NCBI RefSeq assembly: GCF_018499875.1
Contig: NZ_JAHBAY010000002.1
Coordinates: 310,001 to 374,000, forward strand
From: Kineosporia corallincola
Lineage (GTDB): Bacteria > Actinomycetota > Actinomycetes > Actinomycetales > Kineosporiaceae
Direction of reading: 5' to 3'
DNA length: 64,000 nt
Each line of letters opens with the position of its first letter. The first letter of the stretch is position 1. Under the pieces are notes generated by a model. That model ran no database searches and was not told the origin of the DNA. It worked only from the letters and a program-made list of their open reading frames with translations. A program made the translations under genes and the position numbers. Positions 3,932 to 24,915 of this stretch are shown piece by piece.

Positions 3932-4795
3932 GTGGAGACCCCACCCGTGCCCGACCGACCCAGCCTGCTGCTCGTCACCGACCTGACCTACCCCGCGCGC
4001 GGGCGCCGCTACGGCGACGAAGACGTCCGTCTGGCCGCACAGTTGCGCACCGACTTCGACGTGGCGCTGTGCCACCCCCTCGACGCCCGCGCTCTGATGG
4101 ACGGTTTCGACCTGGTGCTCGTGCGCAACAGCGGCCCGGTCATTCACCACCAGCACGAGTTCGAGGCCTTCGCCGGCCACGCCCGCCGCACCGGCGCCCG
4201 GGTGTTCACCCAGCTCACCGGCCGCGCCGACATGGCCGGCAAGCAGTACCTCGTCGACCTCGGCCGCGCCGGGCACCCGGTGATCCCCACCGTCGACGAC
4301 CCGGCCCACCTCGGCGACCTGCCGCCCGCCGAGGAGTACGTGGTCAAGCCCAAGCTCGGCGCCGACTCCATCGGGCTGCGCGTCGTGCCGCGTCACGAGC
4401 TCACCGGCACCGCGGCCCCGGACCGGAGCCTGCTGGTGCAGCCGCGCATCCGGTTCCGCTACGAGGTCTCGTTCTACTTCGTCGACCACGACTTCCAGTA
4501 CGCCCTGCACGCCCCCGACCCGCACCGGCGCTGGGACCTGGAGCCCTACCCGGCCACCGCGGACGACCTGGCCTTCGCCCAGCGGTTCATCGACTGGAAC
4601 ACGATCGAGCACGGCATCCAGCGTGTGGACGCCTGCCGCACCCCCGAGGGCGATCTCCTGCTCGTCGAGCTGGAAGACCTCAACCCCTACCTGTCGCTCG
4701 ACCGCCTCGACGAGAACACCCGCCAGGCGTTCGTCGTCAGCCTGCGCTCCGCCCTGCACCGCCTGCACGCCCGGCCGACGTCACCGCAGAACTGA
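3932..4795 (+). CDS. ATP-grasp-like protein of unknown substrate
   Basis: A 287-aa cytosolic protein (GTG start at 3932, alternative GTG at 3947). The order resembles glutathione-synthetase/RimK-like ATP-grasp proteins: an N-terminal Rossmann-like part (SLLLVTDLTYP), a middle region with GKQYLVDL, a lysine-containing strand YVVKPKLGADSIGLRV that fits the ATP-binding grasp loop, and a C-terminal acidic strand LVELEDLNPYLSL that would carry the Mg-binding E and N residues. Such enzymes ligate a carboxylate to an amine or thiol; the substrate cannot be inferred. The last 59 nt overlap the 3' end of the convergent TOPRIM gene. Confidence 0.6.
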   Translation: METPPVPDRPSLLLVTDLTYPARGRRYGDEDVRLAAQLRTDFDVALCHPLDARALMDGFDLVLVRNSGPVIHHQHEFEAFAGHARRTGARVFTQLTGRADMAGKQYLVDLGRAGHPVIPTVDDPAHLGDLPPAEEYVVKPKLGADSIGLRVVPRHELTGTAAPDRSLLVQPRIRFRYEVSFYFVDHDFQYALHAPDPHRRWDLEPYPATADDLAFAQRFIDWNTIEHGIQRVDACRTPEGDLLLVELEDLNPYLSLDRLDENTRQAFVVSLRSALHRLHARPTSPQN

Positions 4796-5411
4796 GGACG
4801 GCGACCAGGCAGGCCGGCTCGTCCCCGCTCGCCAGCGCCTGCACCAGACGCGGCGGGTACTGGATCTTGCGGCCCGACCGGGTACCGAGAAACCGGTGCA
4901 GCTGCGCCTCCACCGGCTCACCCCGGTGGTCCGGCTGCTGGGCGAACGCCTCGAACCGCGCCGCCTCACCCTCCGCCGCGACCACGTCCAGCACCGCGCC
5001 GGCGCCCAGGGCCCGGATCAGCTCGTCCTCCAGATCGCTGACGCAGGCATGAAATCCGGCGGCGGCCAGGCCGGCGCGTGCCGCGTCGTCCTCCAACAGG
5101 TTCTGCCGCGACCCGAGGTACCGCGGGAACCACCCGGCCCGCTCCAGACCTCTTCGCACATAACCGATCTCGGCCTCGTCGTAGAGGCCCACCAGCGGCA
5201 GGCCCGCGCCCTGCGGCCCGAGCAGCCCGACGAACCGGGCGATCCCCGACGCCCCGCCCATCGAGATCACCACGATCCGCAGCGCCGTCAGGTCAACACC
5301 CCGCCGCCGGGCCAGGGCCTCCACCGCACCCCGGTCGCTCTCCCCCTCGACCAGCACCACCACGGCCGCGTCGCACGCCTGGGCGTGGGCCAGAGCCGCC
5401 TCGGGAGTCAC
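4737..5411 (-). CDS. Stand-alone TOPRIM domain protein
   Basis: A 224-aa protein (GTG start) with the TOPRIM signature: VLVEGESDRGAVEALA at residues about 18-33 provides the conserved glutamate, and VSDLEDELI provides the DxD/E-type metal motif. TOPRIM domains occur in topoisomerases, primases, OLD-family nucleases and RNase M5. Here no ATPase or other partner is present in the chain. It may be a nuclease or nucleotidyl-transfer enzyme (family inference). The 3' end overlaps the ATP-grasp gene, so the two transcripts are antisense there. It is separated from the 7-gene operon by that operon's terminator. Confidence 0.75.
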   Translation of the reverse strand: MTPEAALAHAQACDAAVVVLVEGESDRGAVEALARRRGVDLTALRIVVISMGGASGIARFVGLLGPQGAGLPLVGLYDEAEIGYVRRGLERAGWFPRYLGSRQNLLEDDAARAGLAAAGFHACVSDLEDELIRALGAGAVLDVVAAEGEAARFEAFAQQPDHRGEPVEAQLHRFLGTRSGRKIQYPPRLVQALASGDEPACLVAVLSSAVTSAGRAGGAGRSAG

Positions 5412-5486: not shown

Positions 5487-5511
5487 GGCCGAGCTCAGAA
5501 CGAGCTCGGCC
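5487..5511 (-). terminator. Terminator of the seven-gene heterocycle operon
   Basis: A perfect 10-bp stem (GGCCGAGCTC at 5487, GAGCTCGGCC at 5502) with a 5-nt loop lies about 14 nt past the stop codon of the last operon gene. It also insulates the TOPRIM gene downstream. Confidence 0.75.
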
Positions 5512-5524
5512 GGCCGGAACGGGC

Positions 5525-6094
5525 TCAGCCCGGCAGGTACGACCTGCGCCAGCCGCCCGGGGTGGCGGTGAACTCGGTGCGGCGGCTGGCGGTGGCCGGA
5601 TGGCTCTGCCAGAAGGTGAGGCGCCGGGGACGCACCAGGTACCCGGTCCAGCCGGGAGGCGCGGTGGACGGCACCGGGTTCTGCGACCAGGCCGACCAGG
5701 CCGCGACCCGTCCCGGCTCGTCCAGCTGCGCCAGCTCGTGGGTGTTGTGCCAGGCCAGCTGCCGCAGATAGGGCGAGCGGGCGCGGTAGGCGGCCTCGAT
5801 CTCCTCGGCCGCCGACACCTCCGCCACCCCCTGCACGCTCAGCTGCCGGGTGAAACCCGGCCACAGCAGCAGCAGGGCGACCGGCGGGTGGGCCGACAGG
5901 TGCCCGGCCTTGCGGGAGCCGGCGTCGGTGTGGAACCGCAGCCCTTCCGGCGAGAACCCGCTCAGCAGAACCGTCCGGACGTCGGGCAGCCCGCCGGCGT
6001 CCACCGTGGCCAGCTGCATCTGCGGGCGTTCCGGGTCGTCGTCGCGTGGGAGCCACCCGGACAGCAGCTCCCACGCCTCACCCTCGACGATCAC
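5525..6094 (-). CDS. Pyridoxamine 5'-phosphate oxidase-family flavoprotein
   Basis: A 189-aa protein with the split-barrel FMN-binding fold of the PdxH/PNPOx family: PQMQLATVDAGGLPDVRTVLLSGF near the N-terminus, GLRFHTDAGSRKAGHLSAHP for the FMN-phosphate region, and the PdxH-like end FWQSHPA...RRSYLPG. True PdxH residues are only partly kept, so the substrate may not be PNP/PMP. The GTG start overlaps the creatininase stop by 4 nt (GTGA), so it is translationally coupled as gene 7 of the operon. It may supply a reduced or oxidised flavin step for the pathway (inference). Confidence 0.8.
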   Translation of the reverse strand: MIVEGEAWELLSGWLPRDDDPERPQMQLATVDAGGLPDVRTVLLSGFSPEGLRFHTDAGSRKAGHLSAHPPVALLLLWPGFTRQLSVQGVAEVSAAEEIEAAYRARSPYLRQLAWHNTHELAQLDEPGRVAAWSAWSQNPVPSTAPPGWTGYLVRPRRLTFWQSHPATASRRTEFTATPGGWRRSYLPG

Positions 6095-6867
6095 GGGTGG
6101 AACGCCGCGATCTCGGTGAACGCCCCCACCGCCCGCTGCACGGACTCGGTGAACAGGGCCGCGCCGGCCTCGGCCGTGGCACCGGTCGGGTCACCGATCA
6201 CACCCGAGCCGAAGTCGTCGCTGGTCCACCCGAAACTCACCGGGTAGCCGTTGAAACCGATGTACTCCAGCCCGGCGATGTGCTCGGGCACGTTGCGCTC
6301 GCCCAGGCTCAGGTCGACCAGGTCCGGGCGCAGGTGCAGCACCAGGGACGTCTCCCCGAACCCCGCGTGGATGCCCAGGCCGAGCTCGTCCGGCTCGCCG
6401 TCCACGCCCCGGCCCGCCCGCTGCACCCCGGCCGGCATGCTGAACGTGGCCAGGCCGAACCGGCGCCGCAGCTCCCGCAGCGCCACGCCGAGCAGGGCGG
6501 TGTTGCCGCCGTGCCCGTTCACGAACACCACCGTGCGCGCGGGCGTGGTGGCGATCGAGCGGCCCAGGTCGATCAGTGTCGCCCACAGCGTCTCGGCCGA
6601 CAGCCACATCGTGCCGGGCGCCCAGGCGTGCTCGTCCGACTTCGTGTAGGTCAGCGTGGGCAGCAGCCACAGGTCCAGGCCCCGTGAACGTCCCTCCAGC
6701 ACCGCCGCCTCCGCCACCTTCCCGGCGATCAGCGCGTCCGTGGCCAGGGGCAGGTGCGCACCGTGGTGCTCGATCGCCCCGGTCGGCAGAACCATGATGG
6801 ACGACGAGGTCAGCGTGCTCGCCACCGCCGGACCGGACAGCTCCTCCAGCCGGTGGATGCCGCTCAC
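6091..6867 (-). CDS. Creatininase-family amidohydrolase
   Basis: A 258-aa protein with clear creatininase hallmarks: LPTGAIEHHGAHLPLATD (residues 27-44, containing metal ligands of the E-x-H...D type) and FVNGHGGNTALL. The family includes creatinine amidohydrolase, the F420/riboflavin-pathway FAPy deformylase ArfB, and MftE. The fold and metals are clear but the substrate is open; the operon's CodA-like enzyme suggests a cyclic amide or N-heterocycle. The GTG start at 6867 is chosen because the upstream stop overlaps it (GTGA) and the protein aligns from there; residues further upstream are antisense-like. Confidence 0.85.
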   Translation of the reverse strand: MSGIHRLEELSGPAVASTLTSSSIMVLPTGAIEHHGAHLPLATDALIAGKVAEAAVLEGRSRGLDLWLLPTLTYTKSDEHAWAPGTMWLSAETLWATLIDLGRSIATTPARTVVFVNGHGGNTALLGVALRELRRRFGLATFSMPAGVQRAGRGVDGEPDELGLGIHAGFGETSLVLHLRPDLVDLSLGERNVPEHIAGLEYIGFNGYPVSFGWTSDDFGSGVIGDPTGATAEAGAALFTESVQRAVGAFTEIAAFHP

Positions 6868-8219
6868 GCCTGCCTCCCCGTGCGCACCGTCAGCTCCTGC
6901 TGGAGCTTGCCCGGGTTCAGCAACCCCAGTGGGTCGGTGGTGCGGGCCAGCTCCGCCGTGCGCTCGGGCTGGTAGTCCACGTACCACTGGTGGCAGTTGT
7001 GGAACCCGACGCCGAGCTCGGTGAGCTTGTCGAATCCGTCGTACACCTCCTGCGCGCTGGAGTAGATCCCGGCCAGCATGCCGATCGGGCGGCCCTTCTG
7101 CGCCTCGATGTGCAGCATCCCGCCGACGTACACCCGCTCCACCTCGGCGATCCGGTCGACCAGCGCGTCACCGGCCACCTCGACGTGGAAATACCGGCCC
7201 GGGTGCGACTTCTGGAGCCACTCGATCGGGTGGTTGTACGAGATCCGGCTGATCTTCAGCATCGCCTGGGTGCCCTCCCGGACCAGCTCGACCCGGCCGC
7301 CGGCCTGCTCGACCAGGGCGGTCGCGGCCGGCAGCGAGGCCTCGTCGAGGATCGCCCGCAGGCTCGCCCGGCCGGCCGGGATGCCCTCGTCGGCCGGCAG
7401 CGCCGCCGCCAGCACCGGCGGGTCGGCCGACACCAGCCGCGGTGTGGGCTCCAGCTCGGCGAACGGCCGGATCACGCTCAGTGCCTGCTCGAACGTGTCG
7501 AAGCTGGCGAAGAACCCGCGCCACGGCTGCAACGGCTCCAGCGCGATCTTCGCCCGGGCGATGATCCCGGCCGTGCCGTAGTTGTGGATGTACGGCTCGG
7601 CGTCCGCGCCCTCCACGTGCACCAGGGTGCCCTCACCGTCGGCGTGCACCACGTCCAGGGCCAGCGCGAAGTCCTGGTGCAGCATGCCGTGCCGGATCGA
7701 GCCGGTGCCCCCGGAACCGCCCGAGAGGAAGCCCCCGATGCTGGAGTTCGCGGTCGAGGGGTACATCAGCACCTGCTGGCCGCGGGCGTTGGCCTCGTGC
7801 TCGATCTTGGCCATCGGCACCCCGGCCTCGACCACCACGTAGCCCTCGCCGAACTCCACGATCGCCCGGGCCCGCGTGGTGTCCAGCACCAGCCCGCCGC
7901 TCATCGGGATCGCCTGGCCGTAGTTGCCGGTGCCCTTGCCGCGCGGCGTCACCGGCACCCGGTGACGCACCGCCGCGGCCACGGTCGCGGCGATCAGCTC
8001 CGCGCTGGTCGGCCATGCCACCAGCTCGGCCCGGCCCAGCGGCAGCTGCTCCACGATGATCGGCGACAACCTGGCGCCGTCCACCGACGCCCGCTCCAGG
8101 GCGGCGGCGTCGGCACTGACGTTCTCCGCGCCGAGCAGGTCCCGCAGTTCGGCCGCGAGCGCCCGCACGTTCTCGTTCGTCACCGCCGCTGTCACCGCCG
8201 CCGTCACCTCGCCCGTCAC
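6864..8219 (-). CDS. FAD-linked (PCMH-type) oxidase
   Basis: A 451-aa protein of the GlcD/BBE-like FAD-binding family. The PCMH FAD domain is seen as VTPRGKGTGNYGQAI (about residues 91-105) and SSIGGFLSGGSGGTGSI, followed by a cap domain and the C-terminal LLNPGKL motif found in glycolate oxidase-like enzymes. It would oxidise a hydroxyl or amine carbon, passing electrons to O2 or an unknown carrier. No Fe-S partner is encoded nearby. The GTG start at 8219 overlaps the lipoprotein stop by 4 nt, so it is coupled to the importer genes. Confidence 0.85.
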   Translation of the reverse strand: MTGEVTAAVTAAVTNENVRALAAELRDLLGAENVSADAAALERASVDGARLSPIIVEQLPLGRAELVAWPTSAELIAATVAAAVRHRVPVTPRGKGTGNYGQAIPMSGGLVLDTTRARAIVEFGEGYVVVEAGVPMAKIEHEANARGQQVLMYPSTANSSIGGFLSGGSGGTGSIRHGMLHQDFALALDVVHADGEGTLVHVEGADAEPYIHNYGTAGIIARAKIALEPLQPWRGFFASFDTFEQALSVIRPFAELEPTPRLVSADPPVLAAALPADEGIPAGRASLRAILDEASLPAATALVEQAGGRVELVREGTQAMLKISRISYNHPIEWLQKSHPGRYFHVEVAGDALVDRIAEVERVYVGGMLHIEAQKGRPIGMLAGIYSSAQEVYDGFDKLTELGVGFHNCHQWYVDYQPERTAELARTTDPLGLLNPGKLQQELTVRTGRQA

Positions 8220-9397
8220 TTCAGGCCGATCGTCTGGTCGAGGAACTCGTTGGTGAACAGGTCCTCGGCCTTCAGGCCGTCCTTGGGCGCGGTGTTGCTC
8301 GCGGTGAAGATCGGGGTGTCGATGTCGATGATCTTCTGGATGCGCTCGGCGTCGAAGTCACCGATGTAGTCGTTGTCGCCGTTGCTCACGACGCCGTCGG
8401 AGATCAGCGTCTTGACCGAGTAGTCGGCCACGCCCTGGCTGTACACCCAGCCGTTGTTGAACTCGGTGACCAGCTCCAGCACCAGCTTGTTCGTGGCGGC
8501 CGGGTCGGCGAAGTAGTCCACCTCGGCCTGCTGGAGCACCGGCACCAGCTTCTTCAGGCAGGCGCTGTCCTGGTCCAGGTCGGCGGTGCGCACCGTCATC
8601 GCGGAGGAGTAGAACGGGTAGCCGGCGTCGTGCACCAGCTGGTACTTGACCGCCTTGCCCCAGGCCGGCACCTCGTTCTGGTAGATGTACGGCTCGGCGC
8701 TGGCGAAGCCCTGCTGCGCGTCCTTGCCCTGCGCGGCGGCGAACTTGGCCGGGGTGCCGTCGTAGGTGCCGTCGGTGACGCTCTTGTCGAGGATGCCGGA
8801 GCTGATCAGGTACTCCATGTACGCGGCGCCGCCGAAGTAGCGGGTCACCCCGCCGCTGGCCTTGAGTGCCTTGCCGAGCGAGGCGATGTCGGTGACGTCC
8901 GGGTAGGTCTGCGGGTCCCACATGATCATCTGCGGGCTCTTCTCCAGCGGGGCGAACACCGCGGTGATCGGGTTGTCCTTCGACATCCGCACCGCCTCGT
9001 CGGTATTCACGTAGCCCAGCATGATGTCCTTGTCCTGGTACATCTGGCTGGTCACCGTGGAGTAGCCGATCGCCGGCCCGCCGGAGCGGATCTCGACGTT
9101 CACGCCGGTGGACTTGCCCTCGTACATCAGCGGGCCGGACACCGACTTCTGGTCGGCGTCCACCGTGTAGTCGGCGCCGAGCAGCTGGTACAGGTGGCCG
9201 TGCTCGGCCTCCGGGTTCCAGTCGGTCTGGATGACGACGGTGGCCGGGCAGTCGGCGGACAGGTCCACCGACCCGGCAGCGGCCGGGGCGGCCGTCGCGG
9301 TGCCGGAGGACGAGCCGCCACCGCAGGCGGCCAGGGCGAGCACGGCGGCGGCGGACAGGCCGGCCGCCAGGCTCGTGGACAGGGAGCGACGCATCAT
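8216..9397 (-). CDS. ABC importer substrate-binding lipoprotein (NMT1/ThiY-like)
   Basis: A 393-aa lipoprotein. The signal peptide ends in the lipobox LAAC with C25 as the predicted lipidated residue, followed by a Gly/Ser/Thr/Ala linker. The body has TDWNPEAEHGHLYQLLG, as in binding proteins of the NMT1/THI5 and SsuA/TauA type, which serve importers for pyrimidine precursors, sulfonates and similar compounds. It delivers substrate to the permease and ATPase encoded immediately upstream. It lies 22 nt after the permease gene and overlaps the oxidase start, placing transport and catabolism in one operon. Confidence 0.85.
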   Translation of the reverse strand: MMRRSLSTSLAAGLSAAAVLALAACGGGSSSGTATAAPAAAGSVDLSADCPATVVIQTDWNPEAEHGHLYQLLGADYTVDADQKSVSGPLMYEGKSTGVNVEIRSGGPAIGYSTVTSQMYQDKDIMLGYVNTDEAVRMSKDNPITAVFAPLEKSPQMIMWDPQTYPDVTDIASLGKALKASGGVTRYFGGAAYMEYLISSGILDKSVTDGTYDGTPAKFAAAQGKDAQQGFASAEPYIYQNEVPAWGKAVKYQLVHDAGYPFYSSAMTVRTADLDQDSACLKKLVPVLQQAEVDYFADPAATNKLVLELVTEFNNGWVYSQGVADYSVKTLISDGVVSNGDNDYIGDFDAERIQKIIDIDTPIFTASNTAPKDGLKAEDLFTNEFLDQTIGLK

Positions 9398-9419
9398 TTC
9401 GGTTTCCTTCCGGGAAGTT

Positions 9420-10196
9420 TCAGCTCTGGTCGGCCCACTTGCCGGTGACCAGCCGGCCCAGCAGCCCGAACAGCAGGAACACGAAGACCCCGAGCAGCGA
9501 CGCGGTGATGATGGCCGCGAACGTGCCGGCGCCGTTGAGGCGGGAGTTGGACACCTGGATCAGCACGCCCAGGCCCGGGGTGCCGCGCTGGAAGAACTGG
9601 TCACCGACGATGGCGCCGATCACCGCCAGCCCGGCCGCGGTGCGCAGCCCCACGAAGATCGCCGGCAGCGCCGCCGGCAGCTGGAGCTTGACCAGGGTGG
9701 TCAGGCGCCCGGCCCCGTTGAGCCGGAACAGCTCACGCTGCGCCTTGTCGACCGAGGCCAGGCCGAAGAGCGTGTTGGACACCAGGGGGAACAGCGCGAT
9801 CATCACCGTCACGATCACCCGTGAGGTGAACTCGTAGCCGAAGATGGTGCCGATCAGCGGCACGATCGCCAGGATCGGGATGGTCTGGAGGATCACCGCG
9901 TACGGGTACAGCGAGCGCTCGATCCAGCGGGCCTGCGACATCAGCACCGCCCACGACATCCCGATCAGCACGGCGATCAGCAGGCCGGTGGCGGTCACCA
10001 CGACGGTCTGGAACAGGTTCTCCAGCAACGACTGCCGGAACTGCGCGTCGGTGAACGCGGTCTGTGCCACCAGGTGCGGGTAGGGCACCACGAACGCCAG
10101 CTGCTTGCCGGCGTCGTACCACCAGGCCACCAGGTACCAGGCCCCGATCACCAGGGCCAGCACGATGGTCGGCTGCCACCACGGGATGCGTTTCAT
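9420..10196 (-). CDS. ABC importer permease (SsuC/TauC type)
   Basis: A 258-aa membrane protein with about six hydrophobic segments and the BPD_transp_1 EAA loop region (LFRLNGAGRLTTLVKLQLPAALP...). It is the transmembrane partner of the ATPase with which it shares an ATGA overlap. A typical length for SsuC/TauC/ThiX permeases. A single permease gene implies a homodimer. Confidence 0.9.
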   Translation of the reverse strand: MKRIPWWQPTIVLALVIGAWYLVAWWYDAGKQLAFVVPYPHLVAQTAFTDAQFRQSLLENLFQTVVVTATGLLIAVLIGMSWAVLMSQARWIERSLYPYAVILQTIPILAIVPLIGTIFGYEFTSRVIVTVMIALFPLVSNTLFGLASVDKAQRELFRLNGAGRLTTLVKLQLPAALPAIFVGLRTAAGLAVIGAIVGDQFFQRGTPGLGVLIQVSNSRLNGAGTFAAIITASLLGVFVFLLFGLLGRLVTGKWADQS

Positions 10197-10942
10197 CGGT
10201 GACCCTCCCTCAGGGCGTGCGAGATTTTGCCGACCAGCGTGGCGAATTCGGCGGTGAAGCGGATGTCCGGGTCGCGGGGCATCGCGAACGGCACCTCGAA
10301 GGTGTCGACGATCGTGCCCGGGCGCCCGGACATCACCAGCACCTTGGTGGACAGGTACACGGCCTCGGCGACCGAGTGGGTGATGAACAGGCCGGCGAAG
10401 TTCTGCCGGACGAACAGCCGCAGCAGCTCGTCGTTGAGGCGCTCGCGGGTGATCTCGTCCAGCGCGCCGAACGGCTCGTCGAACAGGAACAGTTCCGGGT
10501 CGAGGGTCAGCGAGCGGGCCAGGGAGGTGCGCATCCGCATGCCGCCGGACAGCTGCCGGGGCAGGTGCTTCTCGAAGCCGGTGAGCCCGACCAGCTCGAT
10601 CGCCTCGGCGGCCCGCGCGGCGCGCTCGGTCTTGGGCACGTGGTGCAGCTCGGCGAGCAGTTCGACGTTGCGGCGCACCGAGCGCCAGGCCAGCAGGGTG
10701 GCGTCCTGGAACACGTAGCCGATGCGCTGTGAGGAGACGGTGGCGGTGCCGGCGGAGACCTGCTCCAGGCCGGAGGCGATGCGCAGCAGGGTGGACTTGC
10801 CGCAGCCGGAGGGGCCGACCACGGAGACGAACTCGCCGCGCGAGACGGTCAGGTCGACGCCGGTGAGGGCCTGGGTCGGGCCGAAACTCATGGCCACGTC
10901 GCGGAAGTCGAGCAGGACATCGGGTGGGGTGGGGTCGGGCAT
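10193..10942 (-). CDS. ABC importer ATPase (SsuB/TauB type)
   Basis: A 249-aa ATPase with Walker A GPSGCGKST, Q-loop YVFQDA, signature LSGGMRMR, Walker B LFLFDEPFGALDE and an H-switch (LFITHS). It energises the neighbouring importer. The ATG at 10942 is preferred because a purine-rich GGAAGAGAG lies just upstream; a GTG at 10972 that overlaps the upstream stop (GTGA) is the alternative and would add ten residues. Ends in an ATGA overlap with the permease. Confidence 0.9.
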   Translation of the reverse strand: MPDPTPPDVLLDFRDVAMSFGPTQALTGVDLTVSRGEFVSVVGPSGCGKSTLLRIASGLEQVSAGTATVSSQRIGYVFQDATLLAWRSVRRNVELLAELHHVPKTERAARAAEAIELVGLTGFEKHLPRQLSGGMRMRTSLARSLTLDPELFLFDEPFGALDEITRERLNDELLRLFVRQNFAGLFITHSVAEAVYLSTKVLVMSGRPGTIVDTFEVPFAMPRDPDIRFTAEFATLVGKISHALREGHR

Positions 10943-10968
10943 GCTCTCTTCCGCTCTCGCCGGGTGGT

Positions 10969-12195
10969 TCACAGGGCTGTTTCGTGGACGACGGACGACC
11001 GGGACACCAGCACCCCGCGGTGGATCACCCGGCGTTCGGCCGGGCCGGCGGCCACGACCTCGCCGAGACTGGTGCCGCGCACGGCCAGGAAGTCGGCGAC
11101 CGCGCCGACGCGGGCGCCGGCCGGGGGCAGGCCGAGCACGGCGCGGGAGCCGTCGGCGATCGCGTGGTAGGCCTCGTCGAGGGTCAGGTGCCCGGCGGTG
11201 ACCAGCAGCGACGCGGTCTCCAGGGCGTCGGCGCGGCCGACCGGGTTGAACGGGTCGCGCAGGTTGTCGGCGCCGCCGGCCACCGGTACACCGGCGTCCA
11301 GGAAGGCCCGCAGCGCGGTCAGGCCGCGGGGGGTGGCGACGGGGTGTTCCCAGCCCTGGAGGTAGAGGTTGGTGATCGGCAGCGAGATGATCCCGATGCC
11401 GGCGGCCCGGACCGCCTCGACGGTGGGCGCGAGTTCGGCTGCGGTCATGGTGCCCTGCCGCACGCAGTGCCCGGCCGAGCGCACCCGGTCGGCCGGCCAG
11501 TCCGTCACCGATCGCGCGTAGTGCGCGAGGGTCGGTGTGGCGGTGAGGTTCTCGTCGGTGTGGAGGTCGGCGCCGACGCCCCGCTCCCGGGCGATCGCGA
11601 GCAGCCGGTCCAGGTCGCGCAGCGGGTCGGGAGCCAGGTGCGGGGCGCCACCGACCAGGTCGACGCCCAGATCCAGGGCGGCGTGCACGACGTCGGTGGG
11701 GGTGTCGGGGGCGGCGAGCGCGACGATCTGGAGGTCGAGCAGGTGGCGGACCTGTTCGCGGAGCCCGGTCAGGGCCCGCACGCCGCGCAGCGGTTCGGGG
11801 CCGGGCAGCAGGTCGACGTGGGTGCGCACGGCGGTGGTGCCGTTGGCCAGCATCATCCGCAGGGCGGCGGTGGCCCGGGCGGCGATACCGGGGGTGGTCA
11901 TGGCGCGGCTGTGGGCCCGCCAGGAATCGATGGCCAGGCCGAGATCGCCCATCGGTGGCTGGATCTCGTCCCAGGACAGGGCCTTGTCGAGGTGGGAGTG
12001 CGGTTCGGCGGGGGCGGTGAGCAGCAGGAAGCCGGTCAGGTCGAGCCGGTGAGGGTCGGTGACCGCCGTGGGGCGCCCGGCATCCGCGGGGTTCACCGCG
12101 GTGACCATCCCGTCGTCGATGTCGACGTCCACCGTGCGGCCGTCCGGCAGCGTGGCACCGGCCAGGCGAGTGACATTCTCGAGCAAACCCGGCAT
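10969..12195 (-). CDS. Cytosine deaminase (CodA)-like metal-dependent hydrolase
   Basis: A 408-aa amidohydrolase, first gene of the operon. CodA-type landmarks: EPHSHLDKAL (two metal His), DLHTDENLTA (metal His and catalytic Glu region, as HCDE in CodA), SAGHCVRQG, LPITNLYLQG and GADNLRDPFNP. In E. coli CodA the last motif is HDDVFDP; here the residue equivalent to D314, which helps recognise the pyrimidine, is Asn. The fold and metal site are intact, so it should deaminate or hydrolyse a cytosine-like ring, but cytosine itself may not be the substrate. The ATG at 12195 has a strong GGAGGGGAG ribosome-binding site; the frame extends upstream but into the operator. Confidence 0.85.
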   Translation of the reverse strand: MPGLLENVTRLAGATLPDGRTVDVDIDDGMVTAVNPADAGRPTAVTDPHRLDLTGFLLLTAPAEPHSHLDKALSWDEIQPPMGDLGLAIDSWRAHSRAMTTPGIAARATAALRMMLANGTTAVRTHVDLLPGPEPLRGVRALTGLREQVRHLLDLQIVALAAPDTPTDVVHAALDLGVDLVGGAPHLAPDPLRDLDRLLAIARERGVGADLHTDENLTATPTLAHYARSVTDWPADRVRSAGHCVRQGTMTAAELAPTVEAVRAAGIGIISLPITNLYLQGWEHPVATPRGLTALRAFLDAGVPVAGGADNLRDPFNPVGRADALETASLLVTAGHLTLDEAYHAIADGSRAVLGLPPAGARVGAVADFLAVRGTSLGEVVAAGPAERRVIHRGVLVSRSSVVHETAL

Positions 12196-12232
12196 CTGCA
12201 CTCCCCTCCCGGGACTGATCTTGCGTAGGATG

Positions 12233-12263
12233 TCGCCGATGTTCCTGTGAGGAACATCGGCGA
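12233..12263. promoter_or_regulatory. 31-bp palindrome, probable operator between regulator and operon
   Basis: Perfect 13-bp arms (right arm GGAACATCGGCGA at 12251) with a 5-nt spacer TGTGA. It lies 38 nt upstream of the deaminase ATG and 60 nt upstream of the XRE-cupin gene, so one dimeric regulator could control both. On position and symmetry, the XRE-cupin protein is the obvious candidate. Confidence 0.8.
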
Positions 12264-12323: not shown

Positions 12324-12953
12324 ATGGAGGCGATCACCGTCAGCGACACCCAGCAGATGCTCGGCGCCCGGATCCGTCAGGTGCGCCGGGCCCGGGGCCT
12401 GACCCTGATCCAGCTGGCCGACGCGGCCGGGCTCACCCACGGATTCCTCAGCAAGCTGGAGCGCGGCCTGGCCAGCCCGAGCATGGCCTCCCTGGCCCAG
12501 ATCGCCCTGGCCCTGGGCACCAGCCAGGTGGAACTGCTGGCCGGGTCCGGGTCCGGGTCCGGGCCCGCGCCGGGCGGGCCCACCGGCCACCACGAGCCTC
12601 CCGCCGCCGCACGGGCACCCGGCCCGGTCCGGGTGCAGCGCTCCGGCGAGGGGGTGAGCGGACCCTACGGCCTGGGTCGCGCCCGCCTGCTGACCAGCGG
12701 CGACCGGCGTCTCCAGCCGATGCTCAGCGAGGGCGAGAACACCGACCCCGGCGAGTACTTCCAGCACGACGAGGACGAGTTCGTCCACGTGATCGCCGGG
12801 CGGGTGCTCGTGGACCTGGGCCCCGGCGACGTGGTGACGCTGGGGCCGGGCGACTCGCTCTACCTCGGCGGGGGCACCCCGCACCGCTGGAGCACCGGCG
12901 GGCCCCAGCCGTACCAGCTGTTCATCGTCAAGGAGAATCCGCAGGCCCGGTAG
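12324..12953 (+). CDS. XRE-family regulator with C-terminal cupin sensor domain
   Basis: A 209-aa protein: an N-terminal helix-turn-helix (IRQVRRARGLTLIQLADAAG, with recognition helix around FLSKLERG), a Gly/Ser/Pro linker containing GSGSGSG from a 6-bp DNA repeat, and a C-terminal cupin barrel (QHDEDEFVHVIAGRV, GDSLYLGGGTPHRW). Such proteins sense a small metabolite through the cupin and bind DNA as dimers. Divergent from the heterocycle operon with the palindrome between them, it is very probably its regulator. No clear ribosome-binding site precedes the ATG. Confidence 0.88.
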   Translation: MEAITVSDTQQMLGARIRQVRRARGLTLIQLADAAGLTHGFLSKLERGLASPSMASLAQIALALGTSQVELLAGSGSGSGPAPGGPTGHHEPPAAARAPGPVRVQRSGEGVSGPYGLGRARLLTSGDRRLQPMLSEGENTDPGEYFQHDEDEFVHVIAGRVLVDLGPGDVVTLGPGDSLYLGGGTPHRWSTGGPQPYQLFIVKENPQAR

Positions 12954-13252: not shown

Positions 13253-13762
13253 GTGATCTACACCGAAGCCGAACACGCCCAGTGGCTCGCCGCCCTGCCC
13301 CGCAAGCACATGGGCGCCGGGGTCCTGCTCACCGATCCCGAACAGCGCGTACTGCTGGTCGAGCCCGTGTACCAAGACACCTGGCTGCTGCCGGGCGGCA
13401 TCGTCGAGGCCGGGGAGTCGCCGCGGGCCGGGGCCTTCCGTGAGGTGCACGAGGAGCTCGGCCTGCGGATGGAACCGGGCCGGTTGCTCGTGGTCGACTG
13501 GGGCAGCAAGCGTCCCGACGGCGGGGACAGCCTGAACTGGCTGTTCGCGGGCTCCCCGGTGGCGGAGGCCGAGATCCGCCTCCAGGCCGAGGAACTGCGG
13601 GCCTGGGCCTGGTGCACCCCCGCCGAGGTGGATCGCCTGGCGCACCCGCGCATCGCCCGCGAGATCGCGGCCGCCCTGACCGCACTACGCGAGGGTCACA
13701 CCCTCTACCTGGAGAACGGGCACCCGGTGGATCAGGCAGATCAGCCTCCCACCACGCAGTGA
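13253..13762 (+). CDS. Nudix hydrolase
   Basis: A 169-aa protein with a complete Nudix box: G49, E55, R63-E64, E67-E68 and G70, in the G-x5-E-x7-RE-x2-EE-x-G spacing. These enzymes cleave nucleoside diphosphate-linked compounds (X-ppN) using Mg2+. The substrate is not evident; the protein fits the small house-cleaning Nudix group. GTG start. No operon partner is obvious. Confidence 0.88.
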   Translation: MIYTEAEHAQWLAALPRKHMGAGVLLTDPEQRVLLVEPVYQDTWLLPGGIVEAGESPRAGAFREVHEELGLRMEPGRLLVVDWGSKRPDGGDSLNWLFAGSPVAEAEIRLQAEELRAWAWCTPAEVDRLAHPRIAREIAAALTALREGHTLYLENGHPVDQADQPPTTQ

Positions 13763-13907
13763 GATCGTCCGGTTACCGGCGGTTTGCTACAGTCCAGGCA
13801 GTCAGGCGTCACCGTCCGCCTCGTCCTGCCCGGGGAACGCCATAAACCTCGTCCGACTCACGCCGTTCGAAGCCAGCGCCACCCTCAGCCTCTTCCGGCG
13901 CCGCGGG

Positions 13908-15047
13908 GTGCCGGCCTCTCTCCTGCTGCTCACCGTCCCGATTTTGCTCGGCGGGGTCGGGCTGCTGGCCGCTGTGCAGGGCACGCTGATCCATCACCAC
14001 GGCGGCCGCACGCTGCACGCCGATCTGCTCAACGTCATCGGCGAGGCCCCGGCCCCCACCGACACGTACTTCCCGTACCTGCGGGACTACCCCACCCTCG
14101 TCGTCCTCACCTTCACCGGCCTGACCGTCGCGCTCGCGTACCGCAACTGCGCGCTGATGGAGCGGTTCCTGCCCCGGCTCAAGGCCAACGGCCTGCTGTT
14201 CGTGCGGCCCCACGACCTGGACGCCTCGGCCCGGGCCCTGGCCCGGGCCAACCGCCGCTTCCGGCTGATCCGCAGGGCCCGGCCGCTGGTCATGGCGGCC
14301 TCTGCCGGGGTCGCCGCGCTGCTCATGCTCAGCGGCCGGACCGGCCCCACCTTCGGCACGCTGGCCCCGGCCGGTTCCGCCGCCGAACGGGAGGCCTGGA
14401 GCTCGCAGGCCTACCAGGGCTGGTGGGCGAGCCTGACCGGCCCGCACTGGCTGGGCGCGGTCACCTACTTCGCCGGGGCGTCGTTCATCGTCTACGTCAT
14501 CCTGAAGCACAACATCATCGGCATCTGCTTCGTGTCGTTCTTCGCCGCCACCGGCCCCCTGCTGCGCTACCGGGTGGACCGCCGCAACCGGGACGGCTAC
14601 TTCGGCTGGCTGATCATGCGCGACCTGCTGGCCACCGTCTTCGTCTCCCTGACGCTGAGCATCGTGGCCTTCGCGTCCATGTTCATCCTGATCCCGGTGA
14701 ACTCGGCCCCCTGGACCCTCCCGTTCCTCGTGCTCTACTTCGTCGGGGTGCCGTCGTACGTGATCCTCCCGATGCGCCTGCTGGAACGCGCCGTCGACCG
14801 CTACCGGCAGCGGGAGATCACCCTGACCGGCGATGCCTTCCGGCGTGCCCGCGCGGACGACACCCTGCCGGACGCGGAACGGCTGAACCTGAACGCCCTG
14901 GAACGGCAGGAGATCCTGGCGATCCAGCAGGCCCGGCCCCAGCTGTTCCGGGGCCGCACCATCGCGGTGACCGCCTCGATCTACATCATCCCGGTCCTCA
15001 CCTCCACGGCACAGACCGTCCTGTCGTACCTCCAGGTGTCCCACTGA
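13908..15047 (+). CDS. Multi-pass integral membrane protein, unknown function
   Basis: A 379-aa protein with about six or seven hydrophobic segments: near residues 3-25, 60-80, 130-145, 180-215, 245-270, 275-300 and 355-375. A basic cytosolic loop (RRARPLVM, RYRVDRRNRDG) and a charged segment before the last TM are also seen. It is not recognised as a transporter family. The GTG at 13908 lacks a good ribosome-binding site, and the frame stays open upstream with a plausible amphipathic sequence (LVRLTPFEASATLSLFRRRG), so the true start may be earlier with a non-standard codon. It converges on the amidohydrolase gene with an 18-nt gap. Confidence 0.7.
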   Translation: MPASLLLLTVPILLGGVGLLAAVQGTLIHHHGGRTLHADLLNVIGEAPAPTDTYFPYLRDYPTLVVLTFTGLTVALAYRNCALMERFLPRLKANGLLFVRPHDLDASARALARANRRFRLIRRARPLVMAASAGVAALLMLSGRTGPTFGTLAPAGSAAEREAWSSQAYQGWWASLTGPHWLGAVTYFAGASFIVYVILKHNIIGICFVSFFAATGPLLRYRVDRRNRDGYFGWLIMRDLLATVFVSLTLSIVAFASMFILIPVNSAPWTLPFLVLYFVGVPSYVILPMRLLERAVDRYRQREITLTGDAFRRARADDTLPDAERLNLNALERQEILAIQQARPQLFRGRTIAVTASIYIIPVLTSTAQTVLSYLQVSH

Positions 15048-15065: not shown

Positions 15066-16370
15066 TCACTTCGCCGTACGGCCCCGCACCCGCCGGTTCA
15101 GCGCCGTCACCAGCTCCCGCTCGTCCGCGTTCACCAGCTCGTAGTCCCGCACCACCACCCGCCCACCGACCACCACGTGCCGCGGGCGCCGGCCCGGGTT
15201 CGCCCACAGCAGCCCGGCGACCGGGTCGGCGACCCCGGCGTCGGCGACCCCCGACACGTCCCACACGCACAGGTCCGCGAACGAACCCGGGCGCAGGTTG
15301 CCCAGGTCGGCCCGGCCCAGCCCGGCCGCCGACCCGGCGGTCGCGGCCGACAGCACCTCACGGGCACTCAGCGGGCGTCCCACCAGGGCCGAGACCTGCA
15401 TCGCCAGGCGGACGTCCGCCAGCAGGTGACCGGCGTCGTTGCTGCCGCCCCCGCTGGTGCCCAGCCCGACCGGGACCCCGGCGTCGAGCAGCGCCGCCAC
15501 CGGCGCGACGCCCCAGCCCATCGGCACGTCGCAGCCCGGGGCGTGGGTGGCCGTGACGCCTGCGGACGCCAGCCGTTTGATCTCCGGCGCGGTGACGTCG
15601 CACAGGTGCGCGATCGTCACCCCGCTCTCCAGCCACCCCCACTCCTCCAGCAGCTCCAGAGGACGGCGCCCGTACCGTTCCAGCGCCACCTCCACGTCCA
15701 CCTGCTCGTTGGCCTGGGTCCGGCGGCGCAGCCCGAAACGGGCCGCCACCTCGGCCATCAGCTCGAAGGTCTCGCGCCGGTCGCTGTGCACACCGGCCGG
15801 GCCGACGGCCAGCTGGAGCATGCCGTCGTGGCTGATCCCGGTGCTCGTACCGGGCAGCAGGGCCTGCACGAGCCGGGTGGCCGAGGCGGCCGCCGCCTGC
15901 GGGTCGTCCCCGGCGCTGCCGCGCACGAAAACCAGCCGGGCGCCGAGCTCGCGCGCGGTCCCCGCCACCGCCGAGGCGATGCCGACGTCGTCGGCGCCCT
16001 GCGGCCAGGTGAGGTGATGGTCGGCGATCGTGGTGACGCCGCACAGCAGGGCCTCGGCCACGCCCACCCCCGCCGCCGCACGGGCCAGCTCCGGGTCGAC
16101 CCCGGCCGAGCGGTAACCGGCCGCCATCACGCCCAGCCACTCACGCATCGGCACGCCACGGGTGCCGGGCAGGGTGCGGAAGGCGCTCTGGAACAGGTGG
16201 TGGTGGGCGTTGACCAGGCCGGGCGTGACCACGGCCCCCTCGGCGTCCAGAATCTCCGGGCCGGTGACCTCCTGGGCCGCGCTGACCCTGCCCTCCTCGA
16301 CGAACAGGTTCCCCGAGATCTCGGTGGCCGGGTCGACGAGAATCCTGCTGGCGCCGGTGATCGTGAGCAT
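15066..16370 (-). CDS. 8-oxoguanine deaminase-like ATZ/TRZ amidohydrolase
   Basis: A 434-aa amidohydrolase of the ATZ/TRZ subgroup. It has GLVNAHHHLFQSAFR (metal His pair), ADHHLTW, EQVDVEVAL, IAHLCDVTAPE and GLGTSGGGSNDAGHL, which matches 8-oxoguanine deaminases and hydroxyatrazine ethylaminohydrolases. It would remove an amino or alkylamino group from a purine or triazine ring; 8-oxoguanine to urate is the most likely reaction from motif similarity. Start at ATG 16370, giving a family-typical length; open codons upstream overlap the divergent DUF1349 gene. Confidence 0.82.
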   Translation of the reverse strand: MLTITGASRILVDPATEISGNLFVEEGRVSAAQEVTGPEILDAEGAVVTPGLVNAHHHLFQSAFRTLPGTRGVPMREWLGVMAAGYRSAGVDPELARAAAGVGVAEALLCGVTTIADHHLTWPQGADDVGIASAVAGTARELGARLVFVRGSAGDDPQAAAASATRLVQALLPGTSTGISHDGMLQLAVGPAGVHSDRRETFELMAEVAARFGLRRRTQANEQVDVEVALERYGRRPLELLEEWGWLESGVTIAHLCDVTAPEIKRLASAGVTATHAPGCDVPMGWGVAPVAALLDAGVPVGLGTSGGGSNDAGHLLADVRLAMQVSALVGRPLSAREVLSAATAGSAAGLGRADLGNLRPGSFADLCVWDVSGVADAGVADPVAGLLWANPGRRPRHVVVGGRVVVRDYELVNADERELVTALNRRVRGRTAK

Positions 16371-17248: not shown

Positions 17249-20200
17249 ATGGGAAGCCAGATGACGTCGGTGGCGCCGGTGGCGTCGGTGCAGGACGCCC
17301 CGGCCGAGGAGGTCCGCACGGTCTGCTCGTACTGCGGTGTCGGCTGCGGGATCGTGCTGGACGTCGTGCGGGATGCTTCCGGTCGTCGCCGGGCCCTGAA
17401 GGCGTCCGGCGACCGGCAGCACCCGGGCAACCGCGGGCGGCTGTGCACCAAGGGCGCCACCAGCGCCCAGCTGCTGGCAGCGCCGGGACGTCTGGAACAC
17501 GCCCTGGTCCGGGCCGACCGGGCACAGGAACCGGCCGCCACCGGGGTGGACGAGGCGATCGCCGTGGCCGCCGGGCGGCTGCGCGCCATCTGGGACGAGC
17601 ACGGACCGGACTCGGTGGCGCTGTACGTGTCCGGTCAGATGAGCCTGGAGGCCCAGTACCTGGCCAACAAACTGGCCAAGGGCTACCTGCGCACCAACCA
17701 GATCGAGTCCAACTCCCGGCTGTGCATGGCCTCGGCCGGCACCGGTTACAAACTCTCCCTCGGCGCCGACGGTCCGCCCGGCTCGTACGACGACCTCGAC
17801 CACGCCGACGTGTTCCTGGTGATCGGCTCGAACATGGCCGACTGCCACCCGATCCTGTTCCTGCGGATGATGGACCGGGTGCGCGCCGGGGCCCGGCTGA
17901 TCGTCGTCGACCCCCGCCGCACCGCCACCGCCGAGAAGGCCGACCTGTTCCTGCAACTGCGGCCGGGCACCGACCTGGCGCTGCTGAACGGGCTGCTGCA
18001 CCTGCTGGCCGCCGGCGGCCACCTCGACCACGACTTCATCACCGAGCACACCCGGGGCTGGGACACCATGCCCGCCCTACTCGCCGACTACCCGCCCGAC
18101 GTGGTCGAGGCGCTCACCGGCGTCCCCGAAACCGCTCTGCGCCAGGCCGCCACGATGATCGGCACCGCCGCGAACTGGGTCAGCTGCTGGACGATGGGCC
18201 TGAACCAGAGCACCCACGGCACCTGGAACACCAACGCCCTGGTCAACCTGCACCTGGCCACCGGCGCGATCTGCCGCACCGGCAGCGGCCCGTTCTCGCT
18301 CACCGGCCAGCCCAACGCGATGGGCGGACGCGAGATGGGCTACATGGGCCCGGGTCTGCCCGGCCAGCGCGCGGTCACCGCCGACGCCGACCGGGCGTTC
18401 GTCGAGGACCTGTGGCAACTGCCGGCCGGCACCCTGCGCCCCGACGGCTTCGGCACCGGCACCGTGGACCTGTTCCGCCGGATGGCCGACGGCGAGGTGC
18501 GGGCCTGCTGGATCATCTGCACCAACCCGGTCGCCAGCGTCGCCAACCGCCGCACCGTGATCGAGGGCCTGGAGAGGGCCGAGCTGGTCATCACCCAGGA
18601 CGTGTTCACCGACACCGAGACCAACGCCTACGCCGACGTGGTGCTGCCCGCCGCGATGTGGTCGGAGTCCGACGCCGTCATGGTCAGCAGCGAGCGCACC
18701 CTGACCCTGGCCCCGCACGCGGTCGATGCCCCGGGGCAGGCCCTGCCGGACTGGCTGCTGATCGTGAAGATGGCCCGGGCCATGGGTTTTCACGACGGTT
18801 TCAGGTATGCCGGTGCGCAGGAGGTGTTCGACGAGATCACCCGGGCCGGCAATCCGCAGACCGGTTACGACCTGCGCGGCGCGAGCTACCCGCGGCTGCG
18901 CGAGAGCCCGCTCCAGTGGCCGGTTCCCGCGGGCGGCTCCAGCCGTAACCCGGTGCGGTACCTCAACGACGGCGTCAGTCAGCGTCTTCTCGAACGCGAG
19001 GACGGCGTGCGCCCGCGGCTGGCCTTCCCGACCACCGACGGCCGGGCCGTGTTCCATCCCCGCCCGCACACCGACCCGGCCGAGATGCCGGACGAAGACT
19101 ACCCTTTCGTGATGAACACCGGCCGCCTGCAACACCAGTGGCACACCCTGACCAAGACCGGGAAGGTGGCCTCGCTGAACCGGCTGAACCCGGGCCCGTT
19201 CGTCGAGATACATCCGGTGGACGCCGTGCGGCTGGGGATCGCGGAGGGCGACCGGGTGGAGGTGGCCTCGCGACGCGGGCGGGCGGTGCTGCCCGCGACG
19301 ATCACCGACCGGGTGCAGCCGGGTGGGTGTTTCGCGCCGTTCCACTGGAACGACCTGTACGGCGAGTATCTCAGTGTGAACGCGGTGACCAGCGACGCGG
19401 TGGACCCGCTGTCGTTCCAGCCGGAGTTCAAGGTGTGCGCGGTGTCGCTGACCCGGGTGGCCGCGGCCCCCACCGCGGCGCCGGTGGTTCCCGATGCGCC
19501 GCAGGAGCTCTCCGCGCCGGGCCGCAGCGTCGTGGTGCTGTACGCGTCGCAGACCGGCAACGCCGAGGAGTTCGCCTCGCGCACGGCCCGGCGGCTGTCC
19601 GGCGCGGGTCGTCCCGCCCGGCTGATCATGATGGACGACGTGAGACCGGCCGCGCTCCCCGCCGGCTGCGACCTGCTGGTGATCACCAGTACGTTCGGGG
19701 ACGGCGAGGCCCCGGACAACGGCAGCGCGTTCTGGCGGTCCCTGGCCGGCGACGGCACCGGGGCCCTGACCGGAACCCGTTACGCCGTGCTGGCGTTCGG
19801 CGACTCCAGCTACGACGACTTCTGCGGGCACGGGCGGCGGCTGGACGCCCGGCTGGCCGAGCTCGGCGCCACCGCCCTGCACCGGCGCACCGACACCGAA
19901 CCACACGACGACGACGTGCGCGACCGATGGCTGGAGCACGTCGTGGGGCGGCTGGCCGGCGAGGGGGCGGCGCCGGGCGAACAGGCCACACCGGACGGCA
20001 GGGCCACACCGGACTACCAGGCCACGCCGGATGGCAGAGCCGCGCCAGGCGACGAGGCGGCGCCAGGCGACAAGGCGGCCTCCGGCGACGAGGCGGCCTC
20101 CGGCGACAGGGACGGGCCCGGTCACCCGGTGGCCACCCGGAAGAACCCCGGCACCGCGCGCCTGGTCGGCAACCGGCTGCTCGGGCTGGAGGGATCGGCG

Positions 20201-21283: not shown

Positions 21284-22101
21284 GGCACCTCCTGGGCCGA
21301 ATCCGTGGCCGGTGTCTCCCGCAGCCCCTGCTTGGCCTGCTGGATCAGCCGGTACACGTGCGCGCGCAGCTCGGCGAAGCGGGCGTCGGAGCGGGTGGTG
21401 AGCTGGTCGCGGGCGGCGGGCAGGTCCACCGTGACGTCCTCGAGGATCACCGTGGGCCGGTTCGACAGCACCAGCACCCGCTGCCCGAGATACACCGCCT
21501 CGTCGATGTCGTGCGTCACGAACACGATCGTGACGCCCAGGTGCTGCCACAGGTCGCGCACCAGGTCCTCCAGCTCGGCGCGGGTCTGGGCGTCCACCGC
21601 GGCGAACGGCTCGTCCATCACCAGGACGCCGGGCCGGTAGGCCACCGCCCGGGCGATCGCGACCCGCTGCTGCATGCCGCCGGACAGCTGCCAGGGATGG
21701 GCGTCCTGGCTGTCGAGCAGACCGACCGCGGCCAGCGCGTCGTCCACCGCGCCCCGCCGCTCCGGCTTGCGCATGCCCTTCTCGATCAGCGGGCGTTCCA
21801 CGTTCTGCCGCACCGTCATCCAGGGGAACAGGCTGCGCCCGTACTCCTGGAACACCACCGCCATGCCCGCCGGCGGGCCGGTCACCCTCTCCCCGGCCAG
21901 CCGCACCTCACCGGCGCTGGGCTCCAGCAGGCCCGCGATGCACCGCAGCAGCGTGGTCTTGCCCGCCCCCGAGGGCCCGACCACGCAGACCAGCTCACCC
22001 CGCCCCACCGTGAAGGTCAGCTCCCGCACCGCCTCCACCCGGCGCCCGTGCCCGGTGTAGGTCTTGGCCAGAGCCCGCACGTCCAGCGCGATCTCGTTCA
22101 T
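21277..22101 (-). CDS. ABC importer ATPase (SsuB/TauB/NrtD type)
   Basis: A 274-aa ATPase with Walker A GPSGAGKTT, Q-loop VVFQEYGRS, signature LSGGMQQR, Walker B LVMDEPFAAVD and FVTHD. Last gene of a four-gene importer operon and convergent with the nitrate reductase, with a 7-nt overlap of the two 3' ends. The start overlaps the permease stop by 1 nt (TGATG). NrtD and SsuB proteins are closely similar, so the motifs do not tell the substrate. Confidence 0.9.
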   Translation of the reverse strand: MNEIALDVRALAKTYTGHGRRVEAVRELTFTVGRGELVCVVGPSGAGKTTLLRCIAGLLEPSAGEVRLAGERVTGPPAGMAVVFQEYGRSLFPWMTVRQNVERPLIEKGMRKPERRGAVDDALAAVGLLDSQDAHPWQLSGGMQQRVAIARAVAYRPGVLVMDEPFAAVDAQTRAELEDLVRDLWQHLGVTIVFVTHDIDEAVYLGQRVLVLSNRPTVILEDVTVDLPAARDQLTTRSDARFAELRAHVYRLIQQAKQGLRETPATDSAQEVPQ

Positions 22102-23662: not shown

Positions 23663-23666
23663 GGCG

Positions 23667-24869: not shown

Positions 24870-24915
24870 CGCCGGCTCCTCCTTGAGTTCGCAGCAACGG
24901 GACAACACCTAAGAC

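Follow-up and report, generated by a model that had tools for sequence, protein, structure and literature searches.

A conserved actinobacterial operon with an XRE-cupin regulator and its possible role in the uptake and catabolism of a pteridine

Introduction

Bacteria in soil and on plants destroy folate and other pterins by routes that are still poorly understood. Published pterin deaminases include Arad3529 of A. radiobacter and a 399-amino-acid (aa) enzyme of Variovorax F1; the Variovorax study traced folate just to deaminated and deglutamylated forms and places a gene for an "endoribonuclease" downstream of the pterin deaminase of V. paradoxus (PMC9513972). A further described component is the protein of structure record 6v42, which carries the title "flavin oxygenase with cofactor bound involved in folate catabolism". 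Here we analyze a seven-gene operon with a divergent XRE-cupin regulator from Kineosporia corallincola (assembly GCF_018499875.1, contig NZ_JAHBAY010000002.1, positions 310,001 to 374,000). The whole stretch of 64,000 nucleotides (nt) is referred to as the window, and window coordinates are counted from its first letter.

This operon is a real conserved unit: the same genes and operator are found in several genera, and the same set of functions in more than one phylum, which is more than chance. A proteobacterial counterpart is already known, at least by the title of 6v42; the actinobacterial set is a variant of it that has unusual partners and is linked to the degradation of purines. With considerable reserve we lean towards the reading that the operon, under local control, imports and degrades a pteridine, either an oxidised pterin or a product of folate breakdown, and that it corresponds in Actinobacteria to the proteobacterial cluster that contains close homologues of 6v42. 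The analysis describes the conserved gene inventory, the importer, the regulator and the operator. A counterpart occurs in another phylum, and the end product of the pathway can be predicted from the link to purine degradation. The pathway thus becomes accessible to experiments in soil actinobacteria, and native functions are suggested for amidohydrolase, creatininase, PNPOx and methylenetetrahydrofolate reductase (MTHFR)-like proteins which so far have been named by distant homology alone. No description of this actinobacterial operon was found among the titles and abstract openings of the searched literature, which may lack most subscription papers and any on 6v42.

Organization of the operon and conservation in Actinobacteria

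The features of the locus are as follows.

5487 to 5511, minus strand: hairpin with a 10-bp stem and a 5-nt loop, no T run, 13 nt past the last gene
5525 to 6094, minus strand: PNPOx-fold protein of the flavin mononucleotide type, 189 aa; Pfam PF01243 (PNPOx_N), E 7.5e-16
6091 to 6867, minus strand: creatininase-family hydrolase, 258 aa; Pfam PF02633 (Creatininase), E 6e-60
6864 to 8219, minus strand: flavin adenine dinucleotide (FAD) oxidase of the vanillyl-alcohol oxidase (VAO) type, candidate flavin oxygenase, 451 aa; Pfam PF01565 (FAD_binding_4)
8216 to 9397, minus strand: substrate-binding lipoprotein, 393 aa; lipobox-like stretch, no Pfam family
9420 to 10196, minus strand: permease of an ATP-binding cassette (ABC) transporter, 258 aa; PF00528 (BPD_transp_1)
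10193 to 10942, minus strand: ABC ATPase, 249 aa; PF00005 (ABC_tran)
10969 to 12195, minus strand: CodA/pterin-deaminase-like amidohydrolase, 408 aa; PF07969 (Amidohydro_3)
12233 to 12263, no strand: candidate operator, 31-bp palindrome between the divergent genes
12324 to 12953, plus strand: XRE-cupin regulator, 209 aa; HTH_3 and Cupin_2
15066 to 16370, minus strand: c3, a TrzN/8-oxoguanine-deaminase-like hydrolase, linked to the operon and outside the seven-gene set; Amidohydro_1, start taken from the alignment

An initial annotation of this DNA had described seven co-directional genes with four overlaps of 4 nt and otherwise close spacing, and the coordinates confirm this arrangement. The overlaps are located at 6091-6094, 6864-6867, 8216-8219 and 10193-10196, and gaps of 22 nt (binding protein/permease) and 26 nt (ATPase/CodA-like gene) separate the remaining genes; the XRE-cupin gene diverges on the plus strand. 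The hairpin said to end the set is present, and the 76-nt stretch that contains it has a fold of -32.2 kcal/mol (z -2.51), but without a T run it does not qualify as a classical intrinsic terminator. The proposed boundaries were too narrow, since c3 belongs to the wider system and relatives contribute a reductase, a short-chain dehydrogenase/reductase (SDR), an MTHFR-like protein (MetVF) and purine-degradation genes.

The same gene order occurs in five Kineosporia congeners and in Demequina aestuarii, with PNPOx alongside in 3 of these 6. To extend this comparison, genome contigs were scanned with a profile from a seven-sequence FAD oxidase alignment, which yielded 256 relatives, and the best 80 loci were kept. 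Many of them come from closely related genera, 19 are shorter than 21.2 kb, and the set includes the Demequina locus as well as three of the Kineosporia loci from the congener comparison. Because automated gene calling was unreliable in GC-rich loci, with genes overlooked or wrongly called, the counts were drawn from tblastn with bit-score thresholds set by us and not from gene maps. As controls we used 16 regions around GlcD-like FAD paralogues (four in Kineosporia), not random regions. All seven structural genes were found together in 68 of the 80 loci, and none of the operon genes passed the same thresholds in the control regions. The single counts were 75 each for the CodA-like gene, ATPase, permease and PNPOx, 76 each for the binding protein and creatininase, and 58 for XRE-cupin. 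The proposal that an importer, a deaminase-type amidohydrolase, a flavin oxidase and amide-hydrolase-type genes form one unit for some cyclic N-compound is borne out by these numbers, and the neighborhood comparison suggested along with it shows that the gene set is kept together. One locus in the counts, L063, is labeled Stenotrophomonas maltophilia and is probably Microbacterium contamination; its gene order and coordinates are nearly identical to those of Microbacterium memoriense L065.

A class-wide search was positive in 25 of 394 genomes. The ten further regions that it provided, among them L172, which is probably the same locus as L065, all contain the CodA-like gene, ATPase, permease, binding protein and FAD oxidase, together with creatininase (9/10), MetVF (6/10) and PNPOx (5/10). 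Six of the ten form a distant clade (FAD oxidase E 1e-102 to 1e-124), in which creatininase was found in 6/6, MetVF in 3/6 and PNPOx in 1/6 regions. A scan of viral contigs with the FAD oxidase gave one pattern match and no relative.

The FAD oxidase and its proteobacterial counterparts

The best sequence match of the FAD oxidase was 6v42, which aligned over the full length (phmmer E 4.3e-42, residues 17-439). The same structure ranked first in a Foldseek search with the predicted model (predicted local distance difference test score, pLDDT, of 85) with an E value of 5e-33 and a template modeling (TM) score of 0.81; D-lactate dehydrogenases followed with E 1e-24. Over part of its sequence 6v42 is 65.0% and 65.4% identical to plasmid oxidases of Rhizobium etli CIAT 652 and Rhizobium sp. 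L51/94, 43-47% identical to five other proteobacterial oxidases and 31.1% identical to the Demequina enzyme.

The proteobacterial regions were selected by us (4 of 10, 3 of 140 and 1 of 16 records from three listings). Both rhizobial clusters contain genes for a CodA-like amidohydrolase, a creatininase, a substrate-binding protein, an ATPase, a permease, an NAD(P)H oxidoreductase and a RidA-type protein, and the first five of these are homologous to their counterparts in the window operon (comparison with L146 and L147). In seven proteobacterial FAD regions creatininase, binding protein and permease were always present, an ATPase was annotated in six, a CodA-like amidohydrolase was found in six and an NAD(P)H oxidoreductase in five. 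RidA is annotated in 6/7 of these clusters, and in L146 it appears under an older name. RidA proteins often carry the annotation endoribonuclease, and for this reason the layout around the V. paradoxus pterin deaminase agrees with the proteobacterial clusters. The cluster on Klebsiella pneumoniae plasmid p2B17602 (L145) combines both amidohydrolase types, two binding proteins, RidA, creatininase and the flavin oxygenase with a VanB-type reductase, which is 36% identical to the actinobacterial one and stands in place of the NAD(P)H oxidoreductase; its second amidohydrolase is c3-like (28%).

The system of 6v42/6v43 with the rhizobial clusters and the operon described here share the fold of the FAD enzyme, homology over its full length and the partners CodA-like amidohydrolase, creatininase and ABC importer. 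They differ in the regulator, which is XRE-cupin in the actinobacterial operon and LysR (rhizobia, Klebsiella) or TetR in the proteobacterial clusters. Compared with the rhizobial clusters the window operon has PNPOx and lacks RidA and the NAD(P)H oxidoreductase, and in Actinobacteria, as opposed to clusters of the 6v42 type, purine, MetVF, SDR and c3 genes lie nearby. Both phyla possess the same functional kit, in which regulators and small partners have been swapped. The initial annotation could name no pathway for this gene combination; its general scheme holds, but that claim was too strong in view of the folate-catabolism title of 6v42 and the rhizobial homologues in similar clusters.

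The operator and its regulator

The palindrome between the operon and the XRE-cupin gene was located at 12233-12263 as initially described and reads TCGCCGATGTTCC-TGTGA-GGAACATCGGCGA. Its 21-base core occurs a single time in the 8.2-Mb genome, even if up to two mismatches are allowed. Sites of the type TGTTNN-N5-NNAACA, with half-sites ending in GA, CC or GG which were picked after inspection of the same 80 loci in which they were counted, lie upstream of the CodA-like gene in 53 of these loci and next to XRE in 52 of the 53, in agreement with the view that the operon has its own regulator. The target loci (1.58 Mb) contain 57 operator-type sites, 55 of them upstream of the CodA-like gene, and the control regions (0.30 Mb) contain one. 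No such site was seen at 6 other loci having XRE. A sigma-70 promoter scan at the operator found nothing.

Half-site TGTTCC pairs with the recognition helix LTHGFLSK (4/4 loci), and TGTTGA or TGTTGG pairs with LSH[PS]FLSQ in all 45 loci with a parsable helix (4 were unparsable); since the four TGTTCC loci are one lineage, this covariation counts as one event. The joint change of half-site and recognition helix supports direct control of the operon by the neighboring XRE-cupin protein, which would bind the TGTTNN-N5-NNAACA palindrome and probably repress both directions until an intermediate of the pathway occupies the cupin domain.

Genes linked to the operon in relatives

Names of neighboring genes were taken from NCBIfam matches of cluster representatives, that of 5-hydroxyisourate hydrolase (HIUase) from inspection. 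A VanB-type ferredoxin reductase was detected at 72, c3 at 65, MetVF at 51 and SDR at 47 of the 80 loci (SDR in 1 of 16 controls), and a second amidohydrolase, named c26 by inspection, at 10. Purine genes were represented by allantoinase (46), uricase (38), XdhC (36), HIUase (26), UraD (26) and XdhA (15). At least one of these six was present at 51 and at least two at 41 of the 80 loci, and none in the 16 controls. Inspection of cluster representatives also revealed lookalikes of allantoate amidohydrolase, guanine deaminase and aminotransferase. With respect to aerobic purine catabolism (xanthine dehydrogenase, uricase, HIUase, UraD and allantoinase), the operon adds a front end outside that route. 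Uricase is located elsewhere in all six Kineosporia genomes.

The ferredoxin reductase had suggested Rieske-type N-demethylation of methylxanthines, but a Rieske oxygenase (PF00848) was present in just 1 of 10 operon-bearing genomes tested. It was not found in the other nine, so the reductase probably has another partner there; the reductases presumably support the flavin oxygenase. MetVF gave weak and partial matches to solved MTHFRs (E 1e-5 to 5e-3). Away from the operon the K. corallincola genome contains a MetVF-like paralogue (G000:C4:429504-430499; L139 9412-10518), which is followed by a methyltransferase-like gene.

The amidohydrolases, the creatininase-family protein and PNPOx

In the CodA-like protein H66, H68, H212, E215, H243 and D310, which we take to be the metal and catalytic residues, are invariant in 12 of 12 sequences from two phyla. 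The protein is related to CodA of E. coli (phmmer E about 4e-27) and keeps these residues, but its score lies far below the NCBIfam cut-off for cytosine deaminase (184.1 versus 403 bits, PRK07583). The published enzymes Arad3529 and Variovorax F1 pterin deaminase resemble it by description, as hydrolases acting on cyclic amidines; in Proteobacteria they share the RidA/endoribonuclease-type neighbor, unlike the window operon. Plasmid pADP-1 of the atrazine strain Pseudomonas sp. ADP (L144, 11935-13266) carries a CodA-like homologue, 53% identical to the Comamonadaceae cluster member, beside the ABC transporter genes near atzD. AtzT of this transporter was found with guanine bound (PMC6834077).

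The creatininase-family protein has invariant E33, H35, D44 and H119 in 12 sequences of two phyla. It remained below the NCBIfam cut-offs for creatininase (81.5 versus 235 bits, TIGR04448) and for MftE of mycofactocin (135.2 versus 172 bits, TIGR03964). Creatinine and cytosine, both considered initially, are therefore not supported as substrates. PNPOx scored 95.5 bits against a cut-off of 180 bits for the pyridoxamine phosphate oxidase PdxH (TIGR00558). On the basis of these cut-offs we rejected roles in cytosine deamination, creatinine hydrolysis, mycofactocin formation and pyridoxal phosphate metabolism.

Among solved structures the closest profile match of c3 was TrzN (275 bits), followed by AtzB/8-oxoguanine deaminase (224 and 209 bits) and 2paj (159 bits), an isoxanthopterin deaminase. 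Q229 and S316 are invariant in 20 aligned c3 sequences, that of the window included, and take the places of His and Thr in TrzN. In deaminases of this group a catalytic Asp stands where c3 has Ser (PMC13054789). A role of c3 as a deaminase is doubtful because of Gln at the TrzN His and Ser at the Asp site. The assignment as 8-oxoguanine deaminase, for which the L056 orthologue reached 263.6 bits against an NCBIfam cut-off of 532 bits, is weakened by the same alterations.

The substrate-binding protein

C25 in the lipobox-like stretch of the binding protein is invariant in 26 sequences. No Pfam family matched the protein, the NMT1/THI5-like family included. The folds nearest to its model (pLDDT 91) were the thiamin-binding protein 4nmy and the formyl-aminopyrimidine (FAMP)-binding protein 3ix1, and Thi5 was also close. 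The modeled fold is consistent with a flat ring that contains an aminopyrimidine as ligand.

The proposed pathway and its alternatives

In the pathway which we propose, with substrate and reaction order deduced from the gene content, a ThiY-like binding protein and the ABC importer would take up a pterin, and the CodA-like amidohydrolase would strip the 2-amino group to give a lumazine. The VAO-type FAD enzyme could then oxidise the side chain or the pyrazine ring, aided by the reductase (VanB-type in most relatives), and the creatininase-family enzyme may open the ring lactam. Redox steps or further hydrolysis would be the task of PNPOx and, in relatives, also of SDR, of c3 and of MetVF together with the reductase. 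A purine product (xanthine) might finally be converted to urate and allantoin by xanthine dehydrogenase, uricase and allantoinase, which are encoded alongside in many relatives. A contraction of the pteridine ring to xanthine is known from classical work on tetrahydroxypteridine cycloisomerase.

The pterin reading is based on the full-length match and first Foldseek rank of a structure assigned to folate catabolism and on the rhizobial homologues that share 65% identity with it and lie in clusters of the same functional composition. The published pterin deaminases with their RidA-type neighbor, a binding-protein fold near thiamin and aminopyrimidine binders, and the adjoining purine, MetVF and VanB-type reductase genes also speak for it. 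A further-reaching version is tentative, and we doubt that it holds in full: a complete actinobacterial mineralisation from pteridine to purine, in which MetVF, an MTHFR-like flavoprotein recruited from the folate cycle and equipped with its own [2Fe-2S] reductase, processes pterins, a new ring reaction is carried out by a TrzN-like hydrolase whose metal site is altered, and an XRE-cupin protein with one operator senses a pterin intermediate.

Several observations weigh against a pterin as substrate. The window FAD enzyme is just 33.6% identical to 6v42 over part of the sequence, and its substrate may therefore differ; the binding proteins of the two phyla are just 23-28% identical, and the one of the window gives no BLAST match to that of L141. 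A RidA-type gene is missing among the window operon genes, unlike all 7 proteobacterial clusters, and no PNPOx is annotated in the latter. Purine genes were not found at 29 of the 80 loci, a sample that includes 19 truncated ones; they occur in just one of the ten further regions and in 0/6 of the distant clade. MetVF, SDR and reductase were not found at the Kineosporia loci among the 80, and the Kineosporia genomes searched held just lower-scoring paralogues of MetVF and reductase. The ring contraction from pterin to xanthine is carried over from the classical chemistry named above, and the roles in pterin breakdown are assigned to the operon enzymes by homology. The representatives of the gene clusters beside the operon included no recognisable peptidase for the processing of folate, which makes a free pterin a likelier substrate than intact folate. 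M20 peptidases (PF01546) occur in 10/10 genomes, a family too broad to tell, and the nearest one in Demequina is about 376 kb away from the operon.

The purine genes adjacent at 51 loci would also fit the breakdown of a modified purine, such as an N-alkylated or 8-oxo guanine released by RNA turnover, from which the deaminases would yield xanthine or urate directly. Two further points lead in the same direction: c3 groups with TrzN, AtzB and 8-oxoguanine deaminase, and hydrolases of N2,N2-dimethylguanine are found within the AtzB subgroup (PMC13054789); and the guanine-bound AtzT is encoded beside a CodA-like homologue on pADP-1 (PMC6834077). Such a route, however, has no obvious need for creatininase, flavin oxygenase and MetVF, and it agrees neither with the title of 6v42, nor with Ser and Gln at the catalytic-Asp and metal-His sites of c3, nor with the lack of purine genes in the six distant-clade regions. 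We consider it unlikely.

Still less probable in our estimate is another N-heterocycle such as the thiamin pyrimidine, an s-triazine-like ring or a hydantoin, with the purine neighbors as part of a general nitrogen-scavenging island. The thiamin- and FAMP-binding folds next to the binding protein, the proximity of c3 to TrzN and the genes annotated as urea amidolyase and allophanate hydrolase that flank the R. etli cluster would suit this explanation; the specific tie to 6v42 is against it, and the cluster representatives inspected showed no recognisable thiamin or triazine genes, although no search was aimed at these. The mixture of enzyme families within one operon might finally suggest a chance assembly of unrelated catabolic genes. 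This is refuted by the conservation of all seven genes in 68 loci versus none of the controls and by the same functions in Proteobacteria, and its probability is close to nil.

Genes bordering the operon

Directly past the operon hairpin, on the same strand, the window contains a gene for an OLD-like TOPRIM protein (4737-5411). The region between the regulator and c3 (13253-15047) harbors a NUDIX gene and a gene for a 379-aa protein without Pfam match; in K. mesophila L027, unlike the window, c3 directly adjoins the regulator. Further along, a fused molybdopterin oxidoreductase-flavodoxin reductase of the nitrate-reductase-like type adjoins an NMT1-type ABC importer (17249-21283 and 21277-24908).

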